This document shows, piece after piece, positions 6,243 to 36,832 of a stretch of 37,439 nucleotides of DNA (positions within the stretch are counted from its first letter, which is position 1; every line of letters begins with the position of its first letter). Source of the DNA: Burkholderiaceae bacterium. Lineage in GTDB: Bacteria > Pseudomonadota > Gammaproteobacteria > Burkholderiales > Burkholderiaceae_C. The translations under genes were made by a program, and so were the position numbers. The notes under the pieces were generated by a model, which was not told the DNA's origin, did not search any database, and was given only the letters and a program-made list of their open reading frames with translations. The stretch covers positions 1 to 37,439 of the forward strand of contig CAJPFZ010000577.1 in the NCBI GenBank assembly GCA_905339355.1, in the 5' to 3' direction.

Positions 6243-7466
6243 ATGAATTTTTTGACGATGGTCTGGGATGGCCTGGTGACTTGGCTGGCCCATGGCCTGG
6301 TGGACACCGCCTGGTGGCAGGTGGTGCTGTACACCCTGATCACCACGCACCTGACGATCGCCTCGGTGACGATCTTCCTGCACCGCGCCCAGGCCCACCG
6401 CGCACTCGACCTCGGCCCCGTGCCCTCGCATTTCTTCCGCCTGTGGCTGTGGCTGACCACCGGCATGGTGACCAAGGAGTGGGTCGCGATACACCGCAAG
6501 CACCACGCCAAGTGCGAAACCGAAGACGATCCGCACAGCCCGCAGACCCGCGGCATCAAGAAGGTGCTGCTCGAAGGCAGCGAGCTCTACCGCGAAGAGG
6601 CCAAGAACCAGCAGACGCTCGCCAAGTTCGGCCACGGCACGCCCGACGACTGGCTCGAGCGCAACCTGTACAGCCGCTTCAGCTGGCAGGGCGTGGGCCT
6701 GATGCTGATCATCAACGTGTCGCTGTTCGGCGCCATCGGCCTCACCGTCTGGGCCGTGCAGATGCTGTGGATCCCGATCACGGCGGCCGGCATCATCAAC
6801 GGCATCGGCCACTGGTGGGGATACCGCAACTTCGAGGCGGCCGACGCGTCGACCAACGTCTCGCCGTGGGGCATCCTCATCGGCGGCGAAGAACTGCACA
6901 ACAACCACCACACCTACCCGACCTCGGCCAAGCTGTCGGTCAAGCCCTACGAGTTCGACATCGGCTGGATGTACATCCGCGGCCTGGAGCTGCTGGGCTG
7001 GGCCAAGGTGCGCAAGACGCCCCCGATGCTCAAGCTCGGCGCCGTCAAGCCGGTGGCCGACTCACAGACGCTCGAGGCCGTCATCGCCAACCGCTACGAG
7101 GTGATGGCCAAGTACGCCAAGCACCTGCGCCACGCCTGCCGCGCCGAGCTGGCCCGGCTGAAGGCCGAGGGCGCGCAGAACACGGCGCGCTGGAAAGAGA
7201 TGCGCCTGGCCCGGCGCTGGCTGCACCGCGACGAGGACAAGATTCCTCACGAGGTGAAGCCGCACGTCGCCAACGTCTGCGCGCAGAACGCGGCGCTGGC
7301 CAAGCTCGTCGCGATGCGCGAGGAGCTGCGCCAGCTGTGGACGCGCACCAACGTGTCGGCCGAGCAGCTGGTGGCCGACCTGCAGGCCTGGTGCAAGAAG
7401 GCCGAAGACAGCGGCATCGCCGCCCTGCAGGAATTCGCGTTGAAGCTGCGCGCGGCGCACGCCTGA
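6243..7466 (+). CDS. Membrane fatty-acid (acyl-CoA) desaturase with long C-terminal tail
   Basis: A 407-residue integral membrane di-iron desaturase that introduces a cis double bond into acyl chains, probably at delta-9. All three histidine boxes are present: HRAQAH (47-52), HRKHH (84-88) and HNNHH (219-223, in GEELHNNHHTYP). Hydrophobic segments surround residues 25-48, 64-75 and 150-180. After the third box, an extra, mostly helical and charged region of about 150 residues runs to the end, with the terminal motif LQAWCKKAEDSGIAALQEFA. A similar tail occurs in some pseudomonad desaturases, but the eukaryotic/cyanobacterial forms lack it. It is a single gene followed by a strong terminator. 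The role is membrane fluidity and unsaturated lipid synthesis. Confidence 0.92.
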   Translation: MNFLTMVWDGLVTWLAHGLVDTAWWQVVLYTLITTHLTIASVTIFLHRAQAHRALDLGPVPSHFFRLWLWLTTGMVTKEWVAIHRKHHAKCETEDDPHSPQTRGIKKVLLEGSELYREEAKNQQTLAKFGHGTPDDWLERNLYSRFSWQGVGLMLIINVSLFGAIGLTVWAVQMLWIPITAAGIINGIGHWWGYRNFEAADASTNVSPWGILIGGEELHNNHHTYPTSAKLSVKPYEFDIGWMYIRGLELLGWAKVRKTPPMLKLGAVKPVADSQTLEAVIANRYEVMAKYAKHLRHACRAELARLKAEGAQNTARWKEMRLARRWLHRDEDKIPHEVKPHVANVCAQNAALAKLVAMREELRQLWTRTNVSAEQLVADLQAWCKKAEDSGIAALQEFALKLRAAHA

Positions 7467-20173: not shown

Positions 20174-22414
20174 ATGTTCAACAGCTGTCGCTTCACCGTC
20201 CTCATCGAGCGCCATGTGCGCCATGCCTGGCGCCTGCTGCTGGCGTGCTTCGCGGCGGTTGCATTGTGCGCGCCGCTGGCGCACGCCAGGCCCCATGCCC
20301 CGGTGCCGCTCGCGAAGATGGCGCAGGATCTGCGCGCCGAGATTGCATCGGTCAGACAGGCGTCGGGGCGGTGGTCGCGCGACGTGCATGGCGTGCGCCA
20401 CGTGGAAGCCATCATCATCTACGAGGGCGGCGACGACGAGTTCGCCGACCTCAAGGCGCACGTCAAGCGCGCCGGCGGCAAGGTCAAGCGGCGGCACAAG
20501 GCCATTCACGGCATCACGGTGCAAATGCCGGCCGCGCAGCTGAAGGAGATCGCCGAGCGCAAGAACGTGGTCAGCATCTCGCCCAACCGTACCGTCACGC
20601 GCAGCGCCAGCGCGCTGGAGTCCATCACCGGCAGCACGCATGCGCAGGTTCGCCAGTACTTCAGCGGTTACTACACCGGTCTCGACGGCGTCGGCGTCGG
20701 CGTTGCCGTGCTCGACTCCGGGATCATGAGTTCCCACCGCAGCTTCTTCGACGAGTGGATGGGCTGGCCGCGCGTGTGGCTCAGCGTGGACATGCTCAAG
20801 TCGGGCAAGGGACTGTGGGGCAGCGGCTTCTCCGATGGCTCGATGTCCTACGCGCCCGACAGCGCGGCGATGTGGAATTACGAGAGCCTCGTCGCCAACG
20901 ACGGCAACCCGAATCCTGACCCCTACGGCCACGGCACGTTCGTCGCTTCCATCATTGCCGGCAGCGGCGCCTACCAGGCGCCCGACACCACCGGTGTCGC
21001 ACCGAATGCCGACCTGTTCGACGTGCGGGTGCTCGGCGCGGACGGCACCGGCTCGGTGAGCGATGTCATCGAGGGCATCGAGTGGGTGATCTACCACGCC
21101 AAGGAATACAACATCCGCGTGATCAACCTGAGCCTTGCCGCCGCATCGGCCGAGTCCTGGCGCACCGACCCGCTGTGCCTGGCCGTGCGCAACGCCACCG
21201 CAGCAGGCATCACCGTGGTCGTGGCGGCCGGAAACTTCGGCAAGGACCGCAAGGGACAGGAGGTGTATGGGGCCATCGGATCGCCGGCCAACGACCCGTC
21301 GGTCATCACCGTCGGTGCCGTCAACTACCGCAACTCGCTGGACCGCGGCGACGACACCGTCGCCACCTTCAGCTCGCGCGGTCCGACCCGCGGCAGTTTC
21401 GTCGACGACAACGGCGTGCGGCAGATCGACAACCTGCTCAAGCCCGACATCGTGGCGCCTGGCAACCGCCTCATCGGCGCGGCGGCGACTGGGCCCTTGA
21501 GTTCTCCGCAGTGGAACCGCATCGCCGCCGCCAACCCGGGACTCGTCAGCGCAGCGGGCGGCAGGCAGACCTACGGCCAGACGCTGATGATGCTCAGCGG
21601 CACCTCGGTCGCCGCCCCCGTGGTGACGGGCACGGTGGCCCTGATGCTGCAAGCCAACCCCGGCCTGACGCCGCCGCTGATCAAGGCCTTGCTGCAGTAC
21701 AGCGCACAGCCGATCGCCGGAGCGAATCTTCTGCAGCAGGGCACGGGCATGGTGAACGTGCACGGCGCGGTCACGCTTGCGCGCATGGTGCGTGGAGACA
21801 TGGCGAACCTCATCTCGGCAGGCGCGATCCCGCCGGGTGCCTCGATCCTGCGCAGCGGGAAGACGGTCCCGGTGCCGACTTCCAGCATCGTCGGCAAGGC
21901 GGTCAACTGGTCGCGCATGATCTTCGTCGGTGGCAACCGGGTGGTGGCGGGCACCTCGCTGCTGACGAAGTACCAGCCTATCTACGACCCGCGCATCACC
22001 TGGGCCAACGACACGGTCCGCAAGCGCGCGCCCCAGTATTGGCCGGGCACGACGAGCGTGCCGGCCAACACCTACGTCAAGTCCTTCACCGAGACGGTGC
22101 CGGCCACGCAGGTGCTGCTGAGCGGCCCGATCACCGATCTGACGTCGGTCGCGGGCCGCAGCTCGCTGGTCGGCCGCACGGGGGTGTTCATTCCGACGGC
22201 GACGCTGGCTTCCTGGGCGGCAAGCGGCAGCGGGCTGACGCTGGGCAGCGGCCTGGTGCTGAGCGAAGGCCTGGTGCTCAGCGAGGGTCTGGTATTGAGC
22301 GAAGGTCTGGTGCTCAGCGAGGGCCTCGTGCTGAGCGAAGGGCAGGTGATGAGCGAAGGCGGCGTCTTCGACGCCATCATGAACCGAACGCTGATCCTGG
22401 AAGGCGATCGTTGA
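20174..22414 (+). CDS. Secreted S8 (subtilisin-like) serine protease with C-terminal GLVLSE repeats
   Basis: A 746-residue exported protease. The signal region is long: basic N-part, hydrophobic LLLACFAAVALCAPL, cleavage near AHA|RP (residue 38). An inhibitor-I9-like prodomain follows at about 63-140 (HVEAIIIYEGGDDEFADLKAHVKRAGG in shortened form, ending VVSISPNRTV). The catalytic triad is complete: Asp181 (VAVLDSGI), His253 (GHGTFVASI) and Ser478 (SGTSVAAPVV). A C-terminal region of about 210 residues of unknown fold ends with six GLVLSE-type repeats (693-728). The ATG at 20174 is chosen because of the signal peptide and the GGAAGG site seven nt upstream. The c-di-GMP gene follows 41 nt later on the same strand. 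The substrate is unknown; an extracellular or surface-bound role is likely. Confidence 0.92.
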   Translation: MFNSCRFTVLIERHVRHAWRLLLACFAAVALCAPLAHARPHAPVPLAKMAQDLRAEIASVRQASGRWSRDVHGVRHVEAIIIYEGGDDEFADLKAHVKRAGGKVKRRHKAIHGITVQMPAAQLKEIAERKNVVSISPNRTVTRSASALESITGSTHAQVRQYFSGYYTGLDGVGVGVAVLDSGIMSSHRSFFDEWMGWPRVWLSVDMLKSGKGLWGSGFSDGSMSYAPDSAAMWNYESLVANDGNPNPDPYGHGTFVASIIAGSGAYQAPDTTGVAPNADLFDVRVLGADGTGSVSDVIEGIEWVIYHAKEYNIRVINLSLAAASAESWRTDPLCLAVRNATAAGITVVVAAGNFGKDRKGQEVYGAIGSPANDPSVITVGAVNYRNSLDRGDDTVATFSSRGPTRGSFVDDNGVRQIDNLLKPDIVAPGNRLIGAAATGPLSSPQWNRIAAANPGLVSAAGGRQTYGQTLMMLSGTSVAAPVVTGTVALMLQANPGLTPPLIKALLQYSAQPIAGANLLQQGTGMVNVHGAVTLARMVRGDMANLISAGAIPPGASILRSGKTVPVPTSSIVGKAVNWSRMIFVGGNRVVAGTSLLTKYQPIYDPRITWANDTVRKRAPQYWPGTTSVPANTYVKSFTETVPATQVLLSGPITDLTSVAGRSSLVGRTGVFIPTATLASWAASGSGLTLGSGLVLSEGLVLSEGLVLSEGLVLSEGLVLSEGQVMSEGGVFDAIMNRTLILEGDR
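22250..22357 (+). repeat. Six 18-bp coding repeats (GLVLSE) at the end of the S8 protease
   Basis: Five units encode GLVLSE and a sixth encodes GQVMSE, in perfect register at 18 bp; a degenerate GLTLGS precedes them. Units 2 and 4 use CTC for Leu and GAG for Glu, while 1, 3 and 5 use CTG/TTG and GAA. This alternation suggests duplication of a 36-bp double unit. The nucleotide similarity means the copy number could change by slippage. Confidence 0.95.
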
Positions 22415-25755: not shown

Positions 25756-26649
25756 ATGTCCTTCCCGACCGCCCGCTTCCACCGCCCGCGACTGCTGATC
25801 GTAGGCTGCGGCGACGTGGGCATGCGCGTGGTGAAGCTGCTGCGGCCGCACTGGCGCTTGTTTGCGCTCGCTACCAGCGCCGAGCGCGCCGCGGCGATCC
25901 GCGCGGCTGGCGCGCAGCCGCTGATCGGCAACCTCGATGTGCCGGCGACGCTCGCGCGGCTGGCCGGCCTCGCCGAGCGCGTGCTGCACCTCGCACCGCC
26001 GCCCAACCACGGCACGCGCGATGCACGCACCGCCAATCTGCTGAATGCGCTCGCGCGCAAGGGTGGGGTGCAGCGCCTCGTCTACGCGAGCACCAGCGGC
26101 GTGTACGGCGACTGCGGCGGCGCGCGCTTCGACGAGACCCGGGCGGTGAACCCGGCCACCGACCGCGCCCGGCGGCGCGTCGACGCCGAAGCGCAGCTGC
26201 GCTGGTTCGGCCGCGCGAGCGGCGCGCGGGTGACCATCTTGCGCATCCCGGGCATCTATGCCGGCGACCGCGAAGGCGGCCATCCGCGCGAGCGCCTGGC
26301 GCGAGGCGCGCCGGTGCTGCAGCCAAGCGAGGACGTCTACACGAACCACATCCATGCCGACGATCTGGCGCGAGCCTGCGTCGCGGCGCTGGTGCGCGGC
26401 CGCCCGCAGCGCGTGGTGCACGCGAGCGACGACAGCGAGCTGCGCATGGGCGACTACTTCGATCTGGCCGCCGACCTGTGCGGCCTGCCGCGCCCGCCGC
26501 GCATCACGCGCGACGAGGCGCGCGCGCAGCTCTCGGCGATGCAGCTGAGTTTTATGGGCGAGTCACGCCGGCTGTGCAATCGGCGGCTGAAGACCGAACT
26601 CAAGCTGCGGCTGCGCCACCCGACGGTGCACAGCGGCCTGCTTGCCTGA
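25756..26649 (+). CDS. NAD(P)-binding SDR/epimerase-fold protein (YeeZ-like)
   Basis: A 297-residue Rossmann-fold protein of the extended or atypical SDR type. The nucleotide-binding glycines are LLIVGCGDVGMRVVKLL (residues 14-30). The segment LVYASTSGVYGDCGG carries the Ser and Tyr often present in epimerases, but the Tyr-x3-Lys pair is not conserved: the next region reads RARRRVDAEAQL. The protein NHIHADDLARACVAAL fits the substrate-side motif of NAD-dependent epimerases. The activity is unknown; E. coli YeeZ is a similar uncharacterised protein. Its stop TGA (26647-26649) directly abuts the stop of the convergent HtrA-like gene. Confidence 0.85.
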   Translation: MSFPTARFHRPRLLIVGCGDVGMRVVKLLRPHWRLFALATSAERAAAIRAAGAQPLIGNLDVPATLARLAGLAERVLHLAPPPNHGTRDARTANLLNALARKGGVQRLVYASTSGVYGDCGGARFDETRAVNPATDRARRRVDAEAQLRWFGRASGARVTILRIPGIYAGDREGGHPRERLARGAPVLQPSEDVYTNHIHADDLARACVAALVRGRPQRVVHASDDSELRMGDYFDLAADLCGLPRPPRITRDEARAQLSAMQLSFMGESRRLCNRRLKTELKLRLRHPTVHSGLLA

Positions 26650-27705
26650 TCAGATGCCCTTCGGGCGGCGCAGCGTCTTCATGCGATCTTCCGATTGCAC
26701 CGTCACGGTCTGCTCCACCCCTGCCCGTTCGACCAGCAGGCGCACCTCACGCTCTGGCCGGTCGCCGCGCCACAGCGCCTGGTAGAACGCGGCCAGGTCG
26801 GCGACCGCGACGCCGTCGATGCGCACGATGCGGTCGCCGGGCAGCAGCCCCGCCGCTTCGGCCGGGCCCTCGGCCGCGGTGCGGACCACGCGCACGGTGC
26901 CCTCGACCTCGACGCAGTTCAGCCCCAGCCAGGCGCGGCTGCTGCTGCGCGACGCGCCGCGCTCGCGCAGCTCGGGAAGGATTGCCTTCAGCAGATCGAT
27001 CGGCACGAACATGTTGCCCGGCAGGCGCGGATGGCCGGGGCCCAGCGCGTCCATCACGATCAGCGAGCCGATGCCCAGCAGCTCGCCGTTGGCGTTGAAC
27101 AGCGCCGCGCCGCTGTGGTCGGTGCGCGGCGGAGTGGTGAAGAGGGCGCCCTCGATGTGATATTCCCAGTAGCCCGAGAAGGGCCGGCGCGAGACCATGC
27201 GTGCGAGGCTCAGGTCGGCGTCCTCGCCACCGCTGGCGATCATCAAGGGGTCGTCCGAGTTGACGGCCGAGGAATTGCCGAGCTGTGCCGGCGGCAAGCG
27301 CAGCGGCGTGAGCGCTTGCAGCAGGCCGAAGCCCGAGGCCAGGTCGTAGGCGACCACGCGGGCCGGGACGATTCGCTCGGGCTCGAGCACCAGCTCGACC
27401 CGGTCGGCTTCGAGGATCAGGTAGCCGATCGTCACCACCAGCCCGTCCTCGCCGATCACCACGCCGGTGCCGCGGCGCTCGCGGCCGAGGTTGTCGATGG
27501 AGCGGGCGTCGTCGACGGCGATCGTGTGCACGCCAACGACCGCCGCATTGGCTCGCGCGAGTGCCTGAACCCTCTCCTGCACCTCGGCGGCCGATACCGG
27601 CTCGGCCGCGGGCGGTTCGCCCGCCGCGTTGGCGCCACCCGCGAGGGCCGGCAGCAGCCCGAAGAGGAAGGCGCCGAGAACCCCAAGCCTGCAGATGCCG
27701 CGCAT
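26650..27705 (-). CDS. HtrA/S1C-like exported protein with degenerate triad and PDZ domain
   Basis: A 351-residue exported protein. The signal peptide is MRGICRLGVLGAFLFGLLPA..ANA|AG with cleavage after residue 27. A trypsin-like fold follows: RGTGVVIGEDGLVVTIGYLI corresponds to the HtrA stretch with TNNHVV, but the catalytic His position reads Tyr95. The Asp segment (usually KTDLAVLK) reads SGFGLLQ (124-130), so Asp is lost. Ser198 remains (DHSGAALFNANGELLGIGS), although the oxyanion motif GNSGGP is altered. A PDZ domain spans about 258-330 (AEAAGLLPGDRIVRIDGVA). The protein is probably not a protease but a peptide- or protein-binding factor in the periplasm. The ATG at 27705 has GGAGG seven nt upstream. 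Rhomboid precedes it on the same strand. Confidence 0.88.
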   Translation of the reverse strand: MRGICRLGVLGAFLFGLLPALAGGANAAGEPPAAEPVSAAEVQERVQALARANAAVVGVHTIAVDDARSIDNLGRERRGTGVVIGEDGLVVTIGYLILEADRVELVLEPERIVPARVVAYDLASGFGLLQALTPLRLPPAQLGNSSAVNSDDPLMIASGGEDADLSLARMVSRRPFSGYWEYHIEGALFTTPPRTDHSGAALFNANGELLGIGSLIVMDALGPGHPRLPGNMFVPIDLLKAILPELRERGASRSSSRAWLGLNCVEVEGTVRVVRTAAEGPAEAAGLLPGDRIVRIDGVAVADLAAFYQALWRGDRPEREVRLLVERAGVEQTVTVQSEDRMKTLRRPKGI

Positions 27706-27766
27706 GACAAACCTCCACGCGAAGGCTTCCAGCATGATCCTTTTGGGCCGCCCGCGAAGCCCCAAT

Positions 27767-27795
27767 GGGATTGCGCTGGCGTGCCAGACTGTCAA
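27767..27795 (-). promoter_or_regulatory. TTGACA hexamer and CTGGC palindrome before the HtrA-like gene
   Basis: On the minus strand there is a perfect -35 hexamer TTGACA (27795-27790). The position 17 nt downstream reads AATCCC, a poor -10, so the promoter might need an activator. CTGGC-AC-GCCAG (27787-27776) sits in the spacer and looks like an operator. The region lies between the rhomboid stop and the HtrA-like start. Confidence 0.35.
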
Positions 27796-27813
27796 GTCCG
27801 GCCTGTCAGGGCG

Positions 27814-28419
27814 TCAGCGGCGGCGCCGCCCGAACGGCGCTTGTCCGCGCCAGTAGCGGATCATCAGGAAGGCGCCGAGCATGCCGCCGAGGTGCGCGAA
27901 GTGCGCCACGCCGTCGCTCACGCGCAGGCCCATCCACAGCTCCAGCGCGCCGAAGATCAGCACGTAGGTCTTGGCCTTCAGCGGGATGGGCGGGATCAGC
28001 AGCATGATCTGCCGGTTGGGGAACAGCATGCCGAACCCCAGCAGCAGCCCGTACACGCCGCCCGACGCGCCCAGCGTCGGAAACGGCGAGCCGGTGATGC
28101 CGACCACGATCAGCTGCGTCGCCGCGGCCGCCAGCACACTCGCCCCGTAGAACTGCATGTAGCGCTTGTCGCCCCACAGCCGCTCGAGCTCGCCGCCGAA
28201 CATCCACAGCGCGAACATGTTGAACAGCAAGTGGATGATGTCGCCATGCAGGAAGGCGTAGGTCACCACTTGCCAAGGCAGGAAGCCATGTGCCAGCGGC
28301 CACAGCGCGAACCACCGAACGAACGAGAACCCGGTGGCCATCCGCAGCAGATCGTCGATGAAGAACGCCGCGACGTTGATGATCAACAGCCACTTGGTGA
28401 TGGGAGGGATGGGAGGCAT
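27814..28419 (-). CDS. Rhomboid family intramembrane serine protease
   Basis: A 201-residue membrane protein with six hydrophobic segments, the basic bacterial rhomboid fold. The catalytic dyad is visible as Ser119 in GASG (LGASGGVYG) and His176 in HFAHLGGMLGAF. His63 and Asn67 (HLLFNMFALW) form the conserved HxxxN oxyanion region. It would cleave transmembrane segments of single-pass proteins within the inner membrane. The length is that of compact bacterial rhomboids, with no extra N-terminal domain. The start ATG at 28419 is just after the tRNA gene on the same strand. The HtrA-like exported protein lies 108 nt downstream. Confidence 0.93.
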   Translation of the reverse strand: MPPIPPITKWLLIINVAAFFIDDLLRMATGFSFVRWFALWPLAHGFLPWQVVTYAFLHGDIIHLLFNMFALWMFGGELERLWGDKRYMQFYGASVLAAAATQLIVVGITGSPFPTLGASGGVYGLLLGFGMLFPNRQIMLLIPPIPLKAKTYVLIFGALELWMGLRVSDGVAHFAHLGGMLGAFLMIRYWRGQAPFGRRRR

Positions 28420-28485
28420 CGCGCGATCCTAAACGAGGAACCGCCCAAGCCCGAATTTGAAAGGGGCGAGCACAGCAACGCTTCC

Positions 28486-28572
28486 TGGTGCCGGAGGCCG
28501 GAATCGAACCGGCACGGTGTTTCCACCGGCAGATTTTGAGTCTGCTGCGTCTACCGATTTCGCCACTCCGGC
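28486..28572 (-). tRNA. tRNA-Leu (anticodon CAA)
   Basis: An 87-nt tRNA including the encoded CCA (28488-28486). The acceptor stem GCCGGAG (28572-28566) pairs with CTCCGGC (28496-28490), with discriminator A. The anticodon arm GCAGA-CTCAAAA-TCTGC places CAA at positions 34-36, reading UUG. A long variable arm (CGGTGG..CACCG) and the T arm with GGTTCGATTCC are present, as in class II tRNAs. A CATAAT box lies about 28 nt upstream. Confidence 0.96.
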
Positions 28573-28606
28573 AGTGGATGGGCGTGGGTCGCGCTTGAGG
28601 GGCCGG

Positions 28607-28612
28607 ATTATG
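28607..28612 (-). promoter_or_regulatory. Putative -10 box of the tRNA-Leu gene
   Basis: CATAAT on the minus strand, 34 nt before the mature 5' end of the tRNA, is a plausible -10 element. The -35 position (CGCGAA with 17-nt spacing) is weak. Confidence 0.4.
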
Positions 28613-28638
28613 GCACGCGCCACGCGGCCTTCGCGCCT

Positions 28639-28653
28639 CGGCGACAATCGCCG
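28639..28653. promoter_or_regulatory. Palindrome with GACAAT box directly before cysM
   Basis: CGGCGA-CAA-TCGCCG (28639-28653) is a perfect 15-bp palindrome ending one base before the cysM ATG. It includes GACAAT (28643-28648), which sits six nt before the ATG and could be a -10 box for a leaderless transcript. No Shine-Dalgarno is present. Confidence 0.35.
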
Positions 28654-28654
28654 A

Positions 28655-29572
28655 ATGGCCTCACGCAAGATCCAGTACCCGAGCGTCGAAGACGTGATCG
28701 GCAACACCCCCCTGGTGCGCCTGATGCGGGTGCCGGGCCTCGAGAACGAACAGCGCGGCAACCTCATTCTCGCCAAGCTCGAAGGCAACAACCCGGCCGG
28801 CTCGGTCAAGGACCGTCCGGCGATCAGCATGATCCGCCGCGCCGAAGAGCGCGGCGAGATCAAGCCGGGCGACACGCTCATCGAGGCCACTTCGGGCAAC
28901 ACCGGCATTGCGCTCGCCATGGCTGCCGCGATGCGCGGCTACCGCATGCTGCTGATCATGCCGGAGGACCTGAGCATCGAACGCGCCCAGACGATGAAGG
29001 CCTACGGCGCCGAGCTGATGCTCACGCCGCGCTCGGGCGGCATGGAGTACGCGCGCGACCTGGCCGAGCAGATGCAGCGCGACGGCAAGGGGCGCGTGCT
29101 CGACCAGTTCGCCAACGACGACAACCCGCGCATCCACTACGAGACGACCGGCCCCGAGATCTGGCGCGACACCCATGGCAAGGTGACGCACTTCGTGAGC
29201 GCCATGGGCACCACCGGCACGATCACCGGCGTCTCGCGTTTCCTGAAGGAGAAGAACAAGTCGATCCGCGTGATCGGCGCGCAGCCGAGCGAAGGTTCGC
29301 GCATCCCTGGCATACGCAAGTGGCCCGAGGCCTACCTGCCGAAGATCTACGACCCGACCTGGGTCGACGAGATGATCTACGTGAGCCAGGCCGATGCCGA
29401 GGAGATGGCACGCCGCCTCGCCCGCGAGGAGGGCCTGTTCGCCGGCATCTCGGCCGCGGGCGCGCTGTGGGTGGCGCTGCAGGTCGCCCGGCAGGTGGAG
29501 AACGCGACCATCGTGTTCGTGGTCTGCGACCGGGGCGACCGCTACCTGTCGACCGGCGTCTTCCCCGCATGA
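28655..29572 (+). CDS. cysM: Cysteine synthase B
   Basis: A 305-residue PLP enzyme that makes cysteine from O-acetylserine and sulfide (or S-sulfocysteine from thiosulfate). The PLP lysine is Lys52 (NNPAGSVKDRPA), and the phosphate loop TSGNTG is at 79-84. GTTGTITGVSRFLKE and the C-terminal conserved GISAAGALW follow. The insertion-poor C-terminus and the family-typical EGSRIPGI and RKWP fit CysM rather than CysK. The ATG at 28655 gives the expected start; the frame upstream to 28457 overlaps the tRNA region. The stop overlaps the NUDIX start by ATGA, so these two genes are translationally coupled, and tusA follows, giving a sulfur-linked cluster. Confidence 0.95.
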   Translation: MASRKIQYPSVEDVIGNTPLVRLMRVPGLENEQRGNLILAKLEGNNPAGSVKDRPAISMIRRAEERGEIKPGDTLIEATSGNTGIALAMAAAMRGYRMLLIMPEDLSIERAQTMKAYGAELMLTPRSGGMEYARDLAEQMQRDGKGRVLDQFANDDNPRIHYETTGPEIWRDTHGKVTHFVSAMGTTGTITGVSRFLKEKNKSIRVIGAQPSEGSRIPGIRKWPEAYLPKIYDPTWVDEMIYVSQADAEEMARRLAREEGLFAGISAAGALWVALQVARQVENATIVFVVCDRGDRYLSTGVFPA

Positions 29573-32528: not shown

Positions 32529-35388
32529 ATTCGGCGACACGCTGCTTCTCCTGATCCACCACCGCGGCCGGCGCGCGCGCCACGAAGCTCTCGTTGCCGA
32601 GCTTGGCGTTGGCCTTGTCGATCTCGCCGGTCAGCCGCGCGATCTCCTTGCCCAGGCGCTCGGCCTCGGCCGCCTTGTCGATTTCGACGTGCAGCGCGAT
32701 GCGCACATCGGCCGCCATCGCCACCGGTGACGCGCCGGCAGCGCGAATGAACTCGGCTTCGTCGTCGAACAGCCGGACGTCCGACGAGCGTGCAAGGGAC
32801 TTCAGCAGCGGCGCGGCTGACTCGAGGAACGCACGGTCGCCGATGGCGTAGATCGGCACCTGCTTGCCCGGCTGCAGGCCCATCTCGCTGCGCAGGCTGC
32901 GCGTGGCGCCGAGCATGGCTTTCAGGCGCGACATCCAGGCGTCGGCCTGCGCGTCGATCTTCTCCGGCTGCGCGATAGGGTAGGGCGCGGCCACGATGCC
33001 CAGCGCGTCGCCCGCCGGCTTGCGGCCGGCCACCGGCGCCACACGCTCCCACAGCTCGGCGGTGATGAACGGTGCGATCGGATGCAGCAGGCGCAGACTC
33101 GCTTCGAGCACGCGGATCAACGTGCGGCGCGTCGCGCGCTGCTGCGCCTCGTCGCCGTCGTGGAGCTGCACCTTGGCGATCTCGATGTACCAGTCGCAGT
33201 ACTCGTCCCAGATGAACTGGTAGATGGCGCTCGACACGTTGTCGAGGCGGTACTCGGCGAAGCCCTTGGCGACCTCGGCCTCGACACGCTGCAGCTCGCT
33301 CGCAATCCAGCGGTCGGCCGCCGAGAAGCTCATGTAGCCGTGGAAGGGGCCGCCGGGCGCGCACTCTTCCTTGGTGTGCTCGCGCAGACCGCAGTCGTGG
33401 CCTTCGCAGTTCGCGAGCACGAACTTGGTGGCGTTCCAGAGCTTGTTGCAGAAGTTGCGGTAGCCCTCGCAGCGCTTGGTGTCGAAGTTGATGTCTCGGC
33501 CGAGGCTCGCGTAGCTCGCCATCGTGAGTCGCAACGCATCGGCGCCGAAGGCCGGAATGCCTTGCGGAAACTCTTTCTCCACGCGCTTCGCGACCTTGGG
33601 CGCGTTCTCCGGCTTGCGCAAGCCGGTGGTCGACTTGCGGAGCAGCTCGGGCAGCGCAACGCCGTCGATCAGGTCGACGGGGTCGAGCACGTTGCCCTCG
33701 CTCTTGCTCATCTTGTGGCCATGCGAGTCGCGCACGAGGCCGTGGATGTAGACGTCGCGGAAAGGCACCTGCCCGGTGAAGTGCACTGTCATCATGATCA
33801 TCCGGGCGACCCAGAAGAAGATGATGTCGAAGCCCGTGACGAGCACGGTGGACGGCAGGAACAGCGACAGCTCCTTGGTTTCGGCGGGCCAGCCGAGCGT
33901 CGAGAAGGGCACCAGCGCGGACGAGTACCAGGTGTCGAGCACGTCTTCGTCGCGCGTGAGCTGCGGCCCGGCGGCGCGGCGGTTCTCGAGCAGGCGCAGC
34001 TGCGCCTCGTCGTGGGCGCCGCGGGCGGCGGCGATGCGGTTGTCGAGCGCGAGTTGCCACTTCTGCGCGGCTTCGTGTTCGTCGCGGCCGACGAAAACCT
34101 CGCCCTCCTCGTCGTACCACGCGGGGATCTGGTGGCCCCACCAGAGCTGGCGCGAGATGCACCAGTCCTGGATGTTCTTCATCCACTGGTTGTAGGTGTT
34201 GACCCATTGCTCGGGCACGAAGCGAACGCGGCCGTCCTGCACCACTTCCATCGCCTTTTCGGCGATCGAGCGGCCGTCGCGGCCAGGCCTGCTCATCGCG
34301 ACGAACCACTGGTCGGTCAGCATCGGCTCGATGACCTGCCCGGTGCGCGCGCAGCGCGGCACCATCAGCTTGTGCTTCTTCACCTCGACCAGAAAGCCCT
34401 GCGCTTCGAGGTCGGCGACGACCTTCTTGCGCGCGGTGAAGCGGTCCATGCCGCGATAGGCCGCGGGCGCGTTGTCGTTGATCTTCGCGTCGAGCGTCAG
34501 CACGCCGATGATCGGCAGGCGGTGGCGCTGGCCGACGGCGTAGTCGTTGGTATCGTGCGCCGGCGTGACCTTGACGACGCCGGTGCCGAACTCGCGGTCG
34601 ACGTAGTCGTCGGCGATGACGGGAATCGTACGGTCGCACAGCGGCAGCGTCACCTGCTTGCCGATCAGTGCGGCGTAGCGCTCGTCGTCAGGGTGCACCA
34701 TCACCGCGGTGTCGCCCAGCATGGTCTCCGGCCGCGTGGTGGCGACCACGACCTCGCCCGAGCCGTCGGCAAGCGGGTAGCGGATATGCCACAGCGAGCC
34801 GTCCTCCTCTTCGCTTTCGACCTCGAGGTCGGACACGGCGGACTTGAGCACCGGGTCCCAGTTCACCATGCGCTTGCCGCGGTAGATCAGGCCTTCCTCG
34901 TAGAGCCGCACGAAGGTTTCGGTGACGACGGGCGAGAGCCGCTCGTCCATCGTGAAGTACTCGTGCTTCCAGGCCACGCTCGCGCCCAGGCGGCGCATCT
35001 GCTGGGTGATGGTGGAGCCGCTGACCTGCTTCCACTCCCAGACCTTGGCGACGAAGTTCTTGCGGCCGATGTCGTGCCGCGACTGGCCCTGGTCCTGCAT
35101 CTGGCGCTCGACGACGATCTGCGTGGCGATGCCCGCATGGTCGGTGCCGGGCAGCCACAGCGTGTTGAAGCCGCGCATGCGGTGGTAGCGCGTGAGCGAA
35201 TCCATGATGGTCTGGTTGAACCCATGGCCCATGTGCAGCGTGCCCGTCACGTTGGGCGGCGGCAGCTGGATCGCGAACGAGGGCCGGGTCTCGTCCAGCG
35301 TGGGCTCGTAGACGCCACTGCGTTCCCACAGCGGTGCCCAGCGGGCCTCGATGGCGGCGGGTTCGAAAGACTTGGCGAGTTCGCTCAT
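32470..35388 (-). CDS. valS: Valyl-tRNA synthetase
   Basis: A 972-residue class I synthetase that charges tRNA-Val and edits mischarged threonine. HIGH is HMGH at 52-55 ([15 protein letters not shown]) and KMSKS is intact at 559-563. The editing (CP1) domain lies between them, about residues 190-340. The C-terminal coiled coil (about 905-972, ending [10 protein letters not shown]) stabilises tRNA binding. I chose the ATG at 35388 ([10 protein letters not shown]), the usual start; the frame is open upstream to 35514 without similarity. The 3' end overlaps the dehydrogenase-like gene by 59 nt on the opposite strand. Confidence 0.97.
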
Positions 35389-35452
35389 GGAAAGGCTGCG
35401 TCCGCCGGCGAAGAACGGACCGGCGAAACAGGTGCTGAAAGGGAAGGCTCCG

Positions 35453-35458
35453 ATTGTA
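35453..35458 (-). promoter_or_regulatory. Putative -10 box of valS
   Basis: TACAAT on the minus strand would start a leader of about 58 nt before the valS ATG. The -35 position (CCTAGC with 17-nt spacing) is weak. The 124-nt gap also has to hold the promoter of the divergent S41 gene. Confidence 0.4.
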
Positions 35459-35512
35459 GAGGTGGCCCATCGCCTGCTAGGGTGTTCGCTTCTCGCGGAC
35501 ACAGGGTGTGGC

Positions 35513-36832
35513 ATGGCAGGTCGGGCGGTGGGTAGGCGGTTGGCGGCGTGGCTTGCCGCCGCCGTGGTGGCGGGGTGTGGCGGTGGCGGCGGTTCGAGTA
35601 ACCCGGGGAGCGACAGCTGCGACGTGGCCTCGCAGAACGTCTGGCTGCAGGCCTACATGAACGACCGCTACTTCTGGGCCGGCATCGCACCGAGCCCGGA
35701 CCCTTCAGGCTATGACAGCGTCGAAAGCTATTTCGAAGCCTTGCTCTACCCCGGCGACGGCGTGACGAGCGCCGACCGATGGAGCTACATCACTGACAGC
35801 GAAAGCTACAACCGCTTCTTCGGCGACGGCATGACGCTCGGCTACGGCGTTTTCGTCAACGGGCTCGAAGCGACCCTGCCGCTCAAGCTGCGCTACGTGG
35901 AGCCGCTGTCGCCGGCTGCGGCGGCAGGCCTGCGCCGCGGCGACGAGATCGTCGCGATCAACGGTCGCTCGGCGGCCGAGGTGGTGGCCGCGGACGACTA
36001 CACGATGCTGTCGCCCACGGCGGAGGGCGAACTGCTGACGCTGGAGGTGCGCCAGGGCGGGTTGCCGCGCACGGTGCAACTGGCGGCGGCGATCTATGCG
36101 CTGGTGCCCGTTCCGGTGTCGACGGTGTTCACGCTGCCCTCCGGGTCCAAGGCGGGATACCTCATGCTGAAGGACTTCGTGACGCAGGCCGAGGCGCCGC
36201 TCACGACCGCCATCGCGGAGATCCGCCAGCAAGGCGCGACCGAGCTGATCCTCGACCTGCGCTACAACGGCGGCGGCCGCGTGTCGACGGCCAACGTGCT
36301 GGCGTCGCTGGTGGCTGGGGCGTCGAACAACGGCGAGGTCTTCACGCGGCTCAGGTACAACGCGAAGAACGCGGCGTCGAACACCGATTTCGTTCTCGCG
36401 AACGGGAGCGGCGCGGCGTTCAGTCGCGTGATCGTGCTGACCGGGGCACGCACCTGTTCGGCCAGCGAGATGCTGGTCAACGGGCTCAAGCCTCACGTAC
36501 AGGTGGTGACGCTTGGCGGCACCACCTGCGGCAAGCCCTATGGGTTCAATCCGGTGCAGTCGTGCGGCAGCACCTTCAGCGCGGTGAACTTCGAGACGGT
36601 CAACGCGCTCGGCGAGGGCGGATATGTGGACGGCATCTCCGCAAACTGCGGCGTGGCGGACGACTTCAGCGGCGAGTTGGGGGACGCGACGGAGAAGCTG
36701 GCGGCGGCGGCCCAAGGCTACTTGAGCAGCGGGGTCTGCCCGGCGGTGTCGGACGGCCGCACGTCAGGGTTCGGCGCGAGGCGCGGATTGCGTGATGTGC
36801 CGGGGGAGCGGTTGGACCGGCGGGCGCAGTAG
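35513..36832 (+). CDS. S41 (tail-specific/C-terminal processing) protease, lipoprotein
   Basis: A 439-residue exported protease anchored by lipid. The lipobox VVAG-Cys22 ends the signal peptide (Cys followed by Gly, no Asp at +2, so outer-membrane sorting is expected). A Gly/Ser-rich linker follows. A PDZ domain sits near residues 110-180 ([23 protein letters not shown]). The S41 core has [10 protein letters not shown] and the Ser-Lys dyad Ser316 (TCSASEML) and Lys341 (CGKPYGF), 25 residues apart as in E. coli Tsp. The protein is thus probably active. It is shorter than Tsp and resembles periplasmic/outer-membrane S41 lipoproteins. The ATG at 35513 is chosen because of the lipoprotein signal. 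It is divergent from valS. Confidence 0.9.

Follow-up and report, generated by a model that had tools for sequence, protein, structure and literature searches.

HtrA proteins are textbook protease-chaperones, and the HtrA/Deg group (S1C) is recognized by a trypsin-like domain followed by a PDZ domain. The nearest described HtrA pseudoprotease found is MamO; in PMC4794232 it is presented as a protein of HtrA fold with a degenerate triad, as are inactive copies of MamE in magnetotactic bacteria, and a residue other than glycine at its position 193 is tied to the loss of the oxyanion hole. According to the same paper, MamO carries a bulky tryptophan in loop L1, a TauE-like transporter domain and a di-His metal site (H148/H263), belongs to the magnetosome island, and is needed for MamE activity without catalysis of its own (PMC4794232). 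A literature search, mostly of openly accessible papers, returned MamO and general work on HtrA, with no description of the family treated below. Two Bradyrhizobium “trypsin-like peptidases” appear in PMC9069715, the main text of which is free of the term HtrA. The family is new to the searched literature; HtrA pseudoproteases as such are known, MamO being the precedent.

The gene and its former active site

The window, that is, the whole stretch of 37,439 nucleotides analysed here, contains a gene for an HtrA-fold protein whose coordinates (26650-27705) were given correctly in the earlier note, to which the strand (minus) has to be added. Its parts, and the gene upstream of it, are as follows.

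26650..27705 (-): HtrA-fold pseudoprotease gene, 351 amino acids plus stop; ATG at 27705 with GGAGG just 5′ of it
27625..27705 (-): putative signal peptide, residues 1-27 (MRGICRLGVL...GANA); hydropathy 2.33, cleavage site placed by eye
27070..27471 (-): Trypsin_2 domain, residues 79-212 (Pfam PF13365, E 1.7e-16, above the gathering score)
27421..27423 (-): Tyr95 (TIGYL), where HtrA has its catalytic His; of 208 members, 206 have Tyr, two Phe and none His
27331..27333 (-): Gly125 (SGFGL), where HtrA has its catalytic Asp; Gly in all 208 members
27157..27186 (-): RPFSGYWEYH, residues 174-183, family-specific and near-invariant, at the presumed place of HtrA sensor loop L3
27106..27120 (-): DHSGA, residues 196-200, altered nucleophile loop; Asp196 for the oxyanion Gly, Ser198 kept
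26698..26928 (-): PDZ domain, residues 260-336 (Pfam PDZ_2, PF13180, E 4.8e-14, above the gathering score)
26653..26688 (-): conserved tail DRMKTLRRPKGI, residues 340-351; R341 in 206 of 207 members
27814..28419 (-): rhomboid-family gene on the same strand, upstream; adjacent here, but the pairing is not conserved

The N-terminus, MRGICRLGVLGAFLFGLLPALAGGANAAGE, with R2 and R6, a hydrophobic stretch and then ANA (25-27), resembles a Sec signal peptide, judged by eye and by its hydropathy of 2.33. Residues 174-183 are taken by us to correspond to the sensor loop L3 of HtrA, following the DegP loop numbering, and WLG at 259-261 is presumably the carboxylate-binding loop of the PDZ domain; there, W259 is found in 205 of 207 and G261 in all 207 family members. 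A scan of 26400-28900 for promoters and terminators gave nothing above shuffled sequence.

Both by Pfam and by fold match the protein has the trypsin-like domain followed by PDZ that marks HtrA/Deg (S1C); its triad positions read Tyr95, Gly125 and Ser198. In HMMER alignments to solved DegP-type chains the His of TNNHV falls on Tyr95, the Asp of the SD stretch on Gly125, and GNSGG on DHSGA, with the nucleophile Ser on Ser198. These alignments bear out the earlier note, which had read a Tyr at the His position, SGFGLL as the Asp segment and Ser198 as kept; the PDZ domain, which it had called intact, is recovered at 260-336 above the Pfam gathering score. A further loss, unnamed there, concerns the oxyanion-hole glycine (193 in chymotrypsin numbering), which is Asp196 in the window protein. 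Three other HtrA genes of the window's genome (L002-L004) have His, Asp and Ser all intact, and the identity of the window protein to the true HtrAs of its own genome is 25-28% over the protease part. All 17 NCBIfam families listed for the protein score under their cut-offs, among them TIGR02037 (69.7 bits against 416.2) and the DegS model TIGR02038 (51.6 bits against 422.95).

The structure prediction that the earlier note had proposed as a check yields an HtrA fold, with a pLDDT of 92.4 and a pTM of 0.88 for the window protein (AlphaFold2, monomer); a non-exported member of the family is modelled with 89.9 and 0.87, respectively. Among solved structures, those of plant Deg1 and DegP come nearest to the window model: the first aligns over 289 residues with Z 26.3 and an rmsd of 5.9, the second over 277 residues with Z 26.1 and an rmsd of 8.6. 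DegS and mycobacterial HtrA structures are also near (Z about 25-26); the model of the non-exported member fits Deg1 with Z 25.3 and an rmsd of 5.6 over 281 residues. The protease domain of the window model alone fits DegP (3mh5_A) at a lower rmsd (3.0 over 185 residues, Z 23.1), so the larger values for the two domains together may stem from a PDZ domain positioned differently in the model. Structures of MamO were absent among the 50 structural matches listed for the window model, an absence to which no weight attaches.

A family with fixed replacements

A scan of the genome collection with the window protein returned 62 loci; of 40 genomes, 14, among them that of the window, had a match at E up to 1e-20. 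When 398 Pseudomonadota genomes were searched with a profile, members scored below E 1e-90 in 35; after a wide gap, the best of the remaining matches, at 6.7e-35, was an HtrA with intact triad. With a broader profile (threshold E up to 1e-50), the window's own family had members in 44 of 150 genomes, always as a single copy, and its order in 74 of 300. The class of genome G074, alphaproteobacterial to judge from its named relatives Rhizobium, Neorhizobium and Azospirillum, had them in 65 of 289 genomes, and the order of genome G394 in 2 of 117. Class and order names are deduced from named relatives in general; all genome searches were made within the phylum Pseudomonadota. G394 and G697, both single-contig genomes of 1.2 Mb, harbour exported-looking members with Ala at the Ser position (L128 and L226); the GC content of the locus in G394 is 31%. 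In a tree built from 102 members together with six true HtrAs, calculated by a quick method with SH-aLRT support only, the family forms one clade on a long stem (support 100). By these sequence comparisons it is an old, widespread and conserved family, apart from the six true HtrAs tested.

Of 210 distinct members kept, the 208 with an assignable start were counted. The orthologue alignment called for in the earlier note finds both Tyr95 and the missing Asp conserved: position 95 is Tyr in 206 members and Phe in two, with His in none, and position 125 is Gly throughout (208/208). The same holds for the first alignment, restricted to 81 sequences of Burkholderiales, in which Tyr is present in 79/79 and Gly in 80/80 ungapped rows (gaps in two rows at position 95 and in one at 125), and for 44 further loci, all with Tyr and Gly, three of which (L272, L278 and L291) repeat members already counted. 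The oxyanion glycine is lost in 206 of 208 members, position 196 being Gly in only two. Position 198, on the other hand, drifts; Ser in 76 of the 81 Burkholderiales sequences (Gly in three, Ala in two), it is Ser in 103, Gly in 87, Ala in 10, Gln in six, and Thr and Pro in one each of the 208, and has changed at least 19 times on the tree described above. Such frequent change next to fixed neighbours can hardly be that of a catalytic nucleophile. Changes in the old nucleophile loop appear coupled: 80 of the 82 members with His197 have Ser198, and 80 of the 117 with Trp197 have Gly198. No His column is conserved family-wide among the 208 members, the best reaching 97, and no replacement base is therefore in sight. 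Since His and Asp have given way to a fixed Tyr and Gly, the oxyanion Gly is gone and the Ser drifts, catalysis of the Ser-His-Asp type would be impossible as far as sequence can show.

Other residues are kept as strictly as those of an enzyme site; L73, G74, R77, T92, E99, D121, F176, W180, E181, Y182, G199, S214, L215, N231 and R341 are each found in at least 206 of 207 or 208 members. Within the loop 174-183, F176, W180, E181 and Y182 are present in 208/208 and G178 in 206/208. The most conserved residues (T92, Y95, E99, D121, G125, F176, W180, E181, Y182, G199, S214 and L215) lie in what was the active site and in the loop taken as L3, and for this reason the site seems to have been rebuilt rather than eroded. 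Ratios of dN/dS, calculated from the dN and dS values of the window gene against four relatives, are about 0.24, 0.29, 0.37 and 0.41. Intact triads in the other HtrAs of the same genome, together with the fixation of the changes in relatives, argue against chance or decay. The earlier view of an exported pseudoprotease that keeps its fold is thus upheld by the confident HtrA-fold model, the family-wide Tyr and Gly, and the lack of a conserved substitute His; what could not be seen from the single gene is, judging from the relatives, that the family is old and widespread, that about half of it has lost the Ser, and that it has non-exported paralogues.

Gene neighbourhoods were compared in blastp clusters at 101 loci (98 of the family and three of true HtrAs) and again in a second set of 95 family loci, and no partner gene shared across the family was found in either. 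A convergent epimerase-like gene lies near 34 of the 98 family loci and a rhomboid gene near 12, all close relatives; these counts are lower bounds, many flanks being short and divergent neighbours falling under the clustering threshold. The rhomboid protease that had been pointed out as a neighbour consequently carries no weight, and an operon or partner deduced from neighbourhood was rejected as functional evidence, the synteny being only at the level of lineages. Because the neighbourhood is not conserved across the family, it points to no client. The role suggested in the earlier note, that of a periplasmic chaperone or regulator of true DegP/DegS, is thus no more than a guess; no HtrA genes are among the immediate neighbours of the window gene. 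Elsewhere, four members from one Burkholderiales family (L245, L249, L250 and L263) were seen by eye to adjoin oppositely oriented ATP synthase-like genes. The window further contains a tRNA-Leu (caa; 28486-28572, minus strand) between the rhomboid gene and a cysM-like gene, a tRNA-Thr (ggt; 20921-21008, minus strand) further off, a second PDZ-bearing peptidase, of family S41 (35351-36832, plus strand), and an open reading frame (6243-7466, plus strand) with matches to fatty acid desaturase (24-227) and an ISL3 transposase domain (280-404), which may be a fusion, an insertion or a chance match.

Exported and non-exported members

Many members have no signal peptide and begin like MSDNTDWEIPEEARPLPSDYRFDLDQALSSVV; for two rhizobial members, the RefSeq starts agree with such an N-terminus. 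Signal peptides were called by a strict home-made rule (charged start, hydrophobic window of ten residues, small residues at the cleavage site), which misses cases that are clear by eye (L232, L274, L282 and L303). Two or three members are present in 52 genomes (32 of the 300 of the order and 20 of the 289 of the class; 109 copies in all), and by this rule exactly one copy has a signal peptide in 48 of them, none in four, and two in none; the 52 share ancestry and are not independent. In the four genomes with none (G028, G468, G509 and G639), one copy has, by eye, a hydrophobic N-terminus ending AxA-like. Exported and non-exported members are mostly separate on the tree; the exceptions are L123, inside the exported clade, and L209, at its base, neither of which has a signal peptide by the simple label (start site and hydropathy) used there, which is noisier than the strict rule and whose 9 changes over-count. 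The split is mainly an old paralogy kept in pairs. The pair is not obligatory, as single-copy genomes exist, including that of the window, where only the exported copy was found.

In Burkholderiales there is also a third, non-exported type; its N-terminus resembles MTLPLFTAAFACWRA and its loop reads HSGA, and its members (L231, L236, L238, L243, L248 and L261; support 100) stand beside the exported clade of the window protein, the joining branch having a support of 88. This placement suggests a formerly exported copy that may have lost its signal peptide and come back inside. One could imagine, as a conjecture to which we give little credence, a two-sided system in which one pseudoprotease on each side of the inner membrane would read the same kind of tail or unfolded segment, the inner one on clients still to be exported and the outer one on clients already exported. 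In genomes that lack the old cytoplasmic copy, the inside post would then have fallen to a copy grouping beside the exported branch, apparently after loss of its signal peptide. The repeated outside/inside pairing makes a clear prediction for localisation and double-deletion tests.

Possible functions and comparison with known systems

The window protein is probably a non-catalytic scaffold of the exported branch that binds clients via its PDZ domain and the rebuilt cleft. In such a scaffold, the cleft and the retained PDZ domain would bind segments of a client without cutting; the PDZ domain would grip the C-terminus of the client, and the segment next to it would be held by the invariant loop at the L3 position and the Tyr-filled cleft, giving the protein a periplasmic role as adaptor, regulator or holdase. 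The non-exported sister branch might do the corresponding job in the cytoplasm of many species. However, an intact PDZ domain and fold are no proof of peptide binding, and the invariant Y95, E99, D121, E181 and R77 could equally form a pocket for a small ligand or for new chemistry. The latter, a rebuilt pocket of Tyr95, Glu99, Asp121, Glu181 and Arg77 with a new activity or a small ligand, accords with the invariance or near-invariance of these residues in 208 members, which is stricter than loose binding of clients may need; we nevertheless think it quite unlikely, as the family has neither a conserved His nor a classical nucleophile, nor any conserved metabolic gene neighbours. It is unlikely, too, that the protein modulates the true DegP/DegS-type proteases of its own cell by joining or touching them. 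The shared fold and the three intact HtrA genes in the window's genome speak for such a partnership, as does the non-catalytic activation of MamE by MamO, but the activating part of MamO is its TauE-like domain (both according to PMC4794232), which the window protein lacks. Moreover, non-exported members that are the only ones found in their genomes (e.g., those of G082 and G367) cannot partner a periplasmic HtrA, and the protease part is 25-28% identical to that of the genome's own true HtrAs.

A metal-binding pseudoprotease after the manner of MamO would agree with the shared fold, the residue other than Gly at the oxyanion position and the W197 of 117 of 208 members; with the best His column at 97/208, so that no common di-His site is in sight, and with no TauE domain, this is improbable. 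Still less credible is a remaining protease in which an unusual base serves Ser198. The first, Burkholderiales alignment has this Ser in 76 of its 81 sequences, and His197 pairs with it in 80 of the 82 members bearing that His; yet 105 of 208 members have another residue (Gly, Ala, Gln, Thr or Pro) at position 198, 206 are without the oxyanion Gly, and a His directly adjoining the Ser would be an unlikely base. That the gene is functionless and decaying can practically be dismissed: the loss of the triad would fit, and one of the 35 strong profile matches (in G161) has an internal stop, but none was found among the listed matches from the family, order and class searches, the same replacements are fixed in 208 members, and dN/dS ranges from 0.24 to 0.41.

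A large non-cutting family with a strictly conserved fold would be a natural experiment separating binding from cutting. Its members may be catalogued as proteases; of 20 plasmid records listed for a relative, three bear the label “S1C family serine protease” and the other 17 are unannotated at the match.

With the HtrA/Deg proteins (S1C: DegP, DegQ, DegS, AlgW, MucD and plant Deg1) the window protein has in common the order of Trypsin_2 and PDZ; unlike them, its family has His, Asp and the oxyanion Gly replaced, a drifting Ser, and a loop of its own, FxGxWEY. DegS is similar in combining one protease domain with one PDZ domain in the cell envelope, whereas the window protein is without the triad and its N-terminus looks, by eye and hydropathy, like a signal peptide and not an anchor. 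With MamO it shares the degenerate triad and, by the criterion given in PMC4794232, the residue other than Gly at position 193. It differs in matching only the Trypsin_2 and PDZ families, with no TauE domain. As to the di-His site, no conserved counterpart is apparent in the alignment of the 208 family members, in which no His column is kept family-wide. In contrast to MamO, the family is marked by its fixed pair of Tyr and Gly and by its wide spread in two proteobacterial groups.
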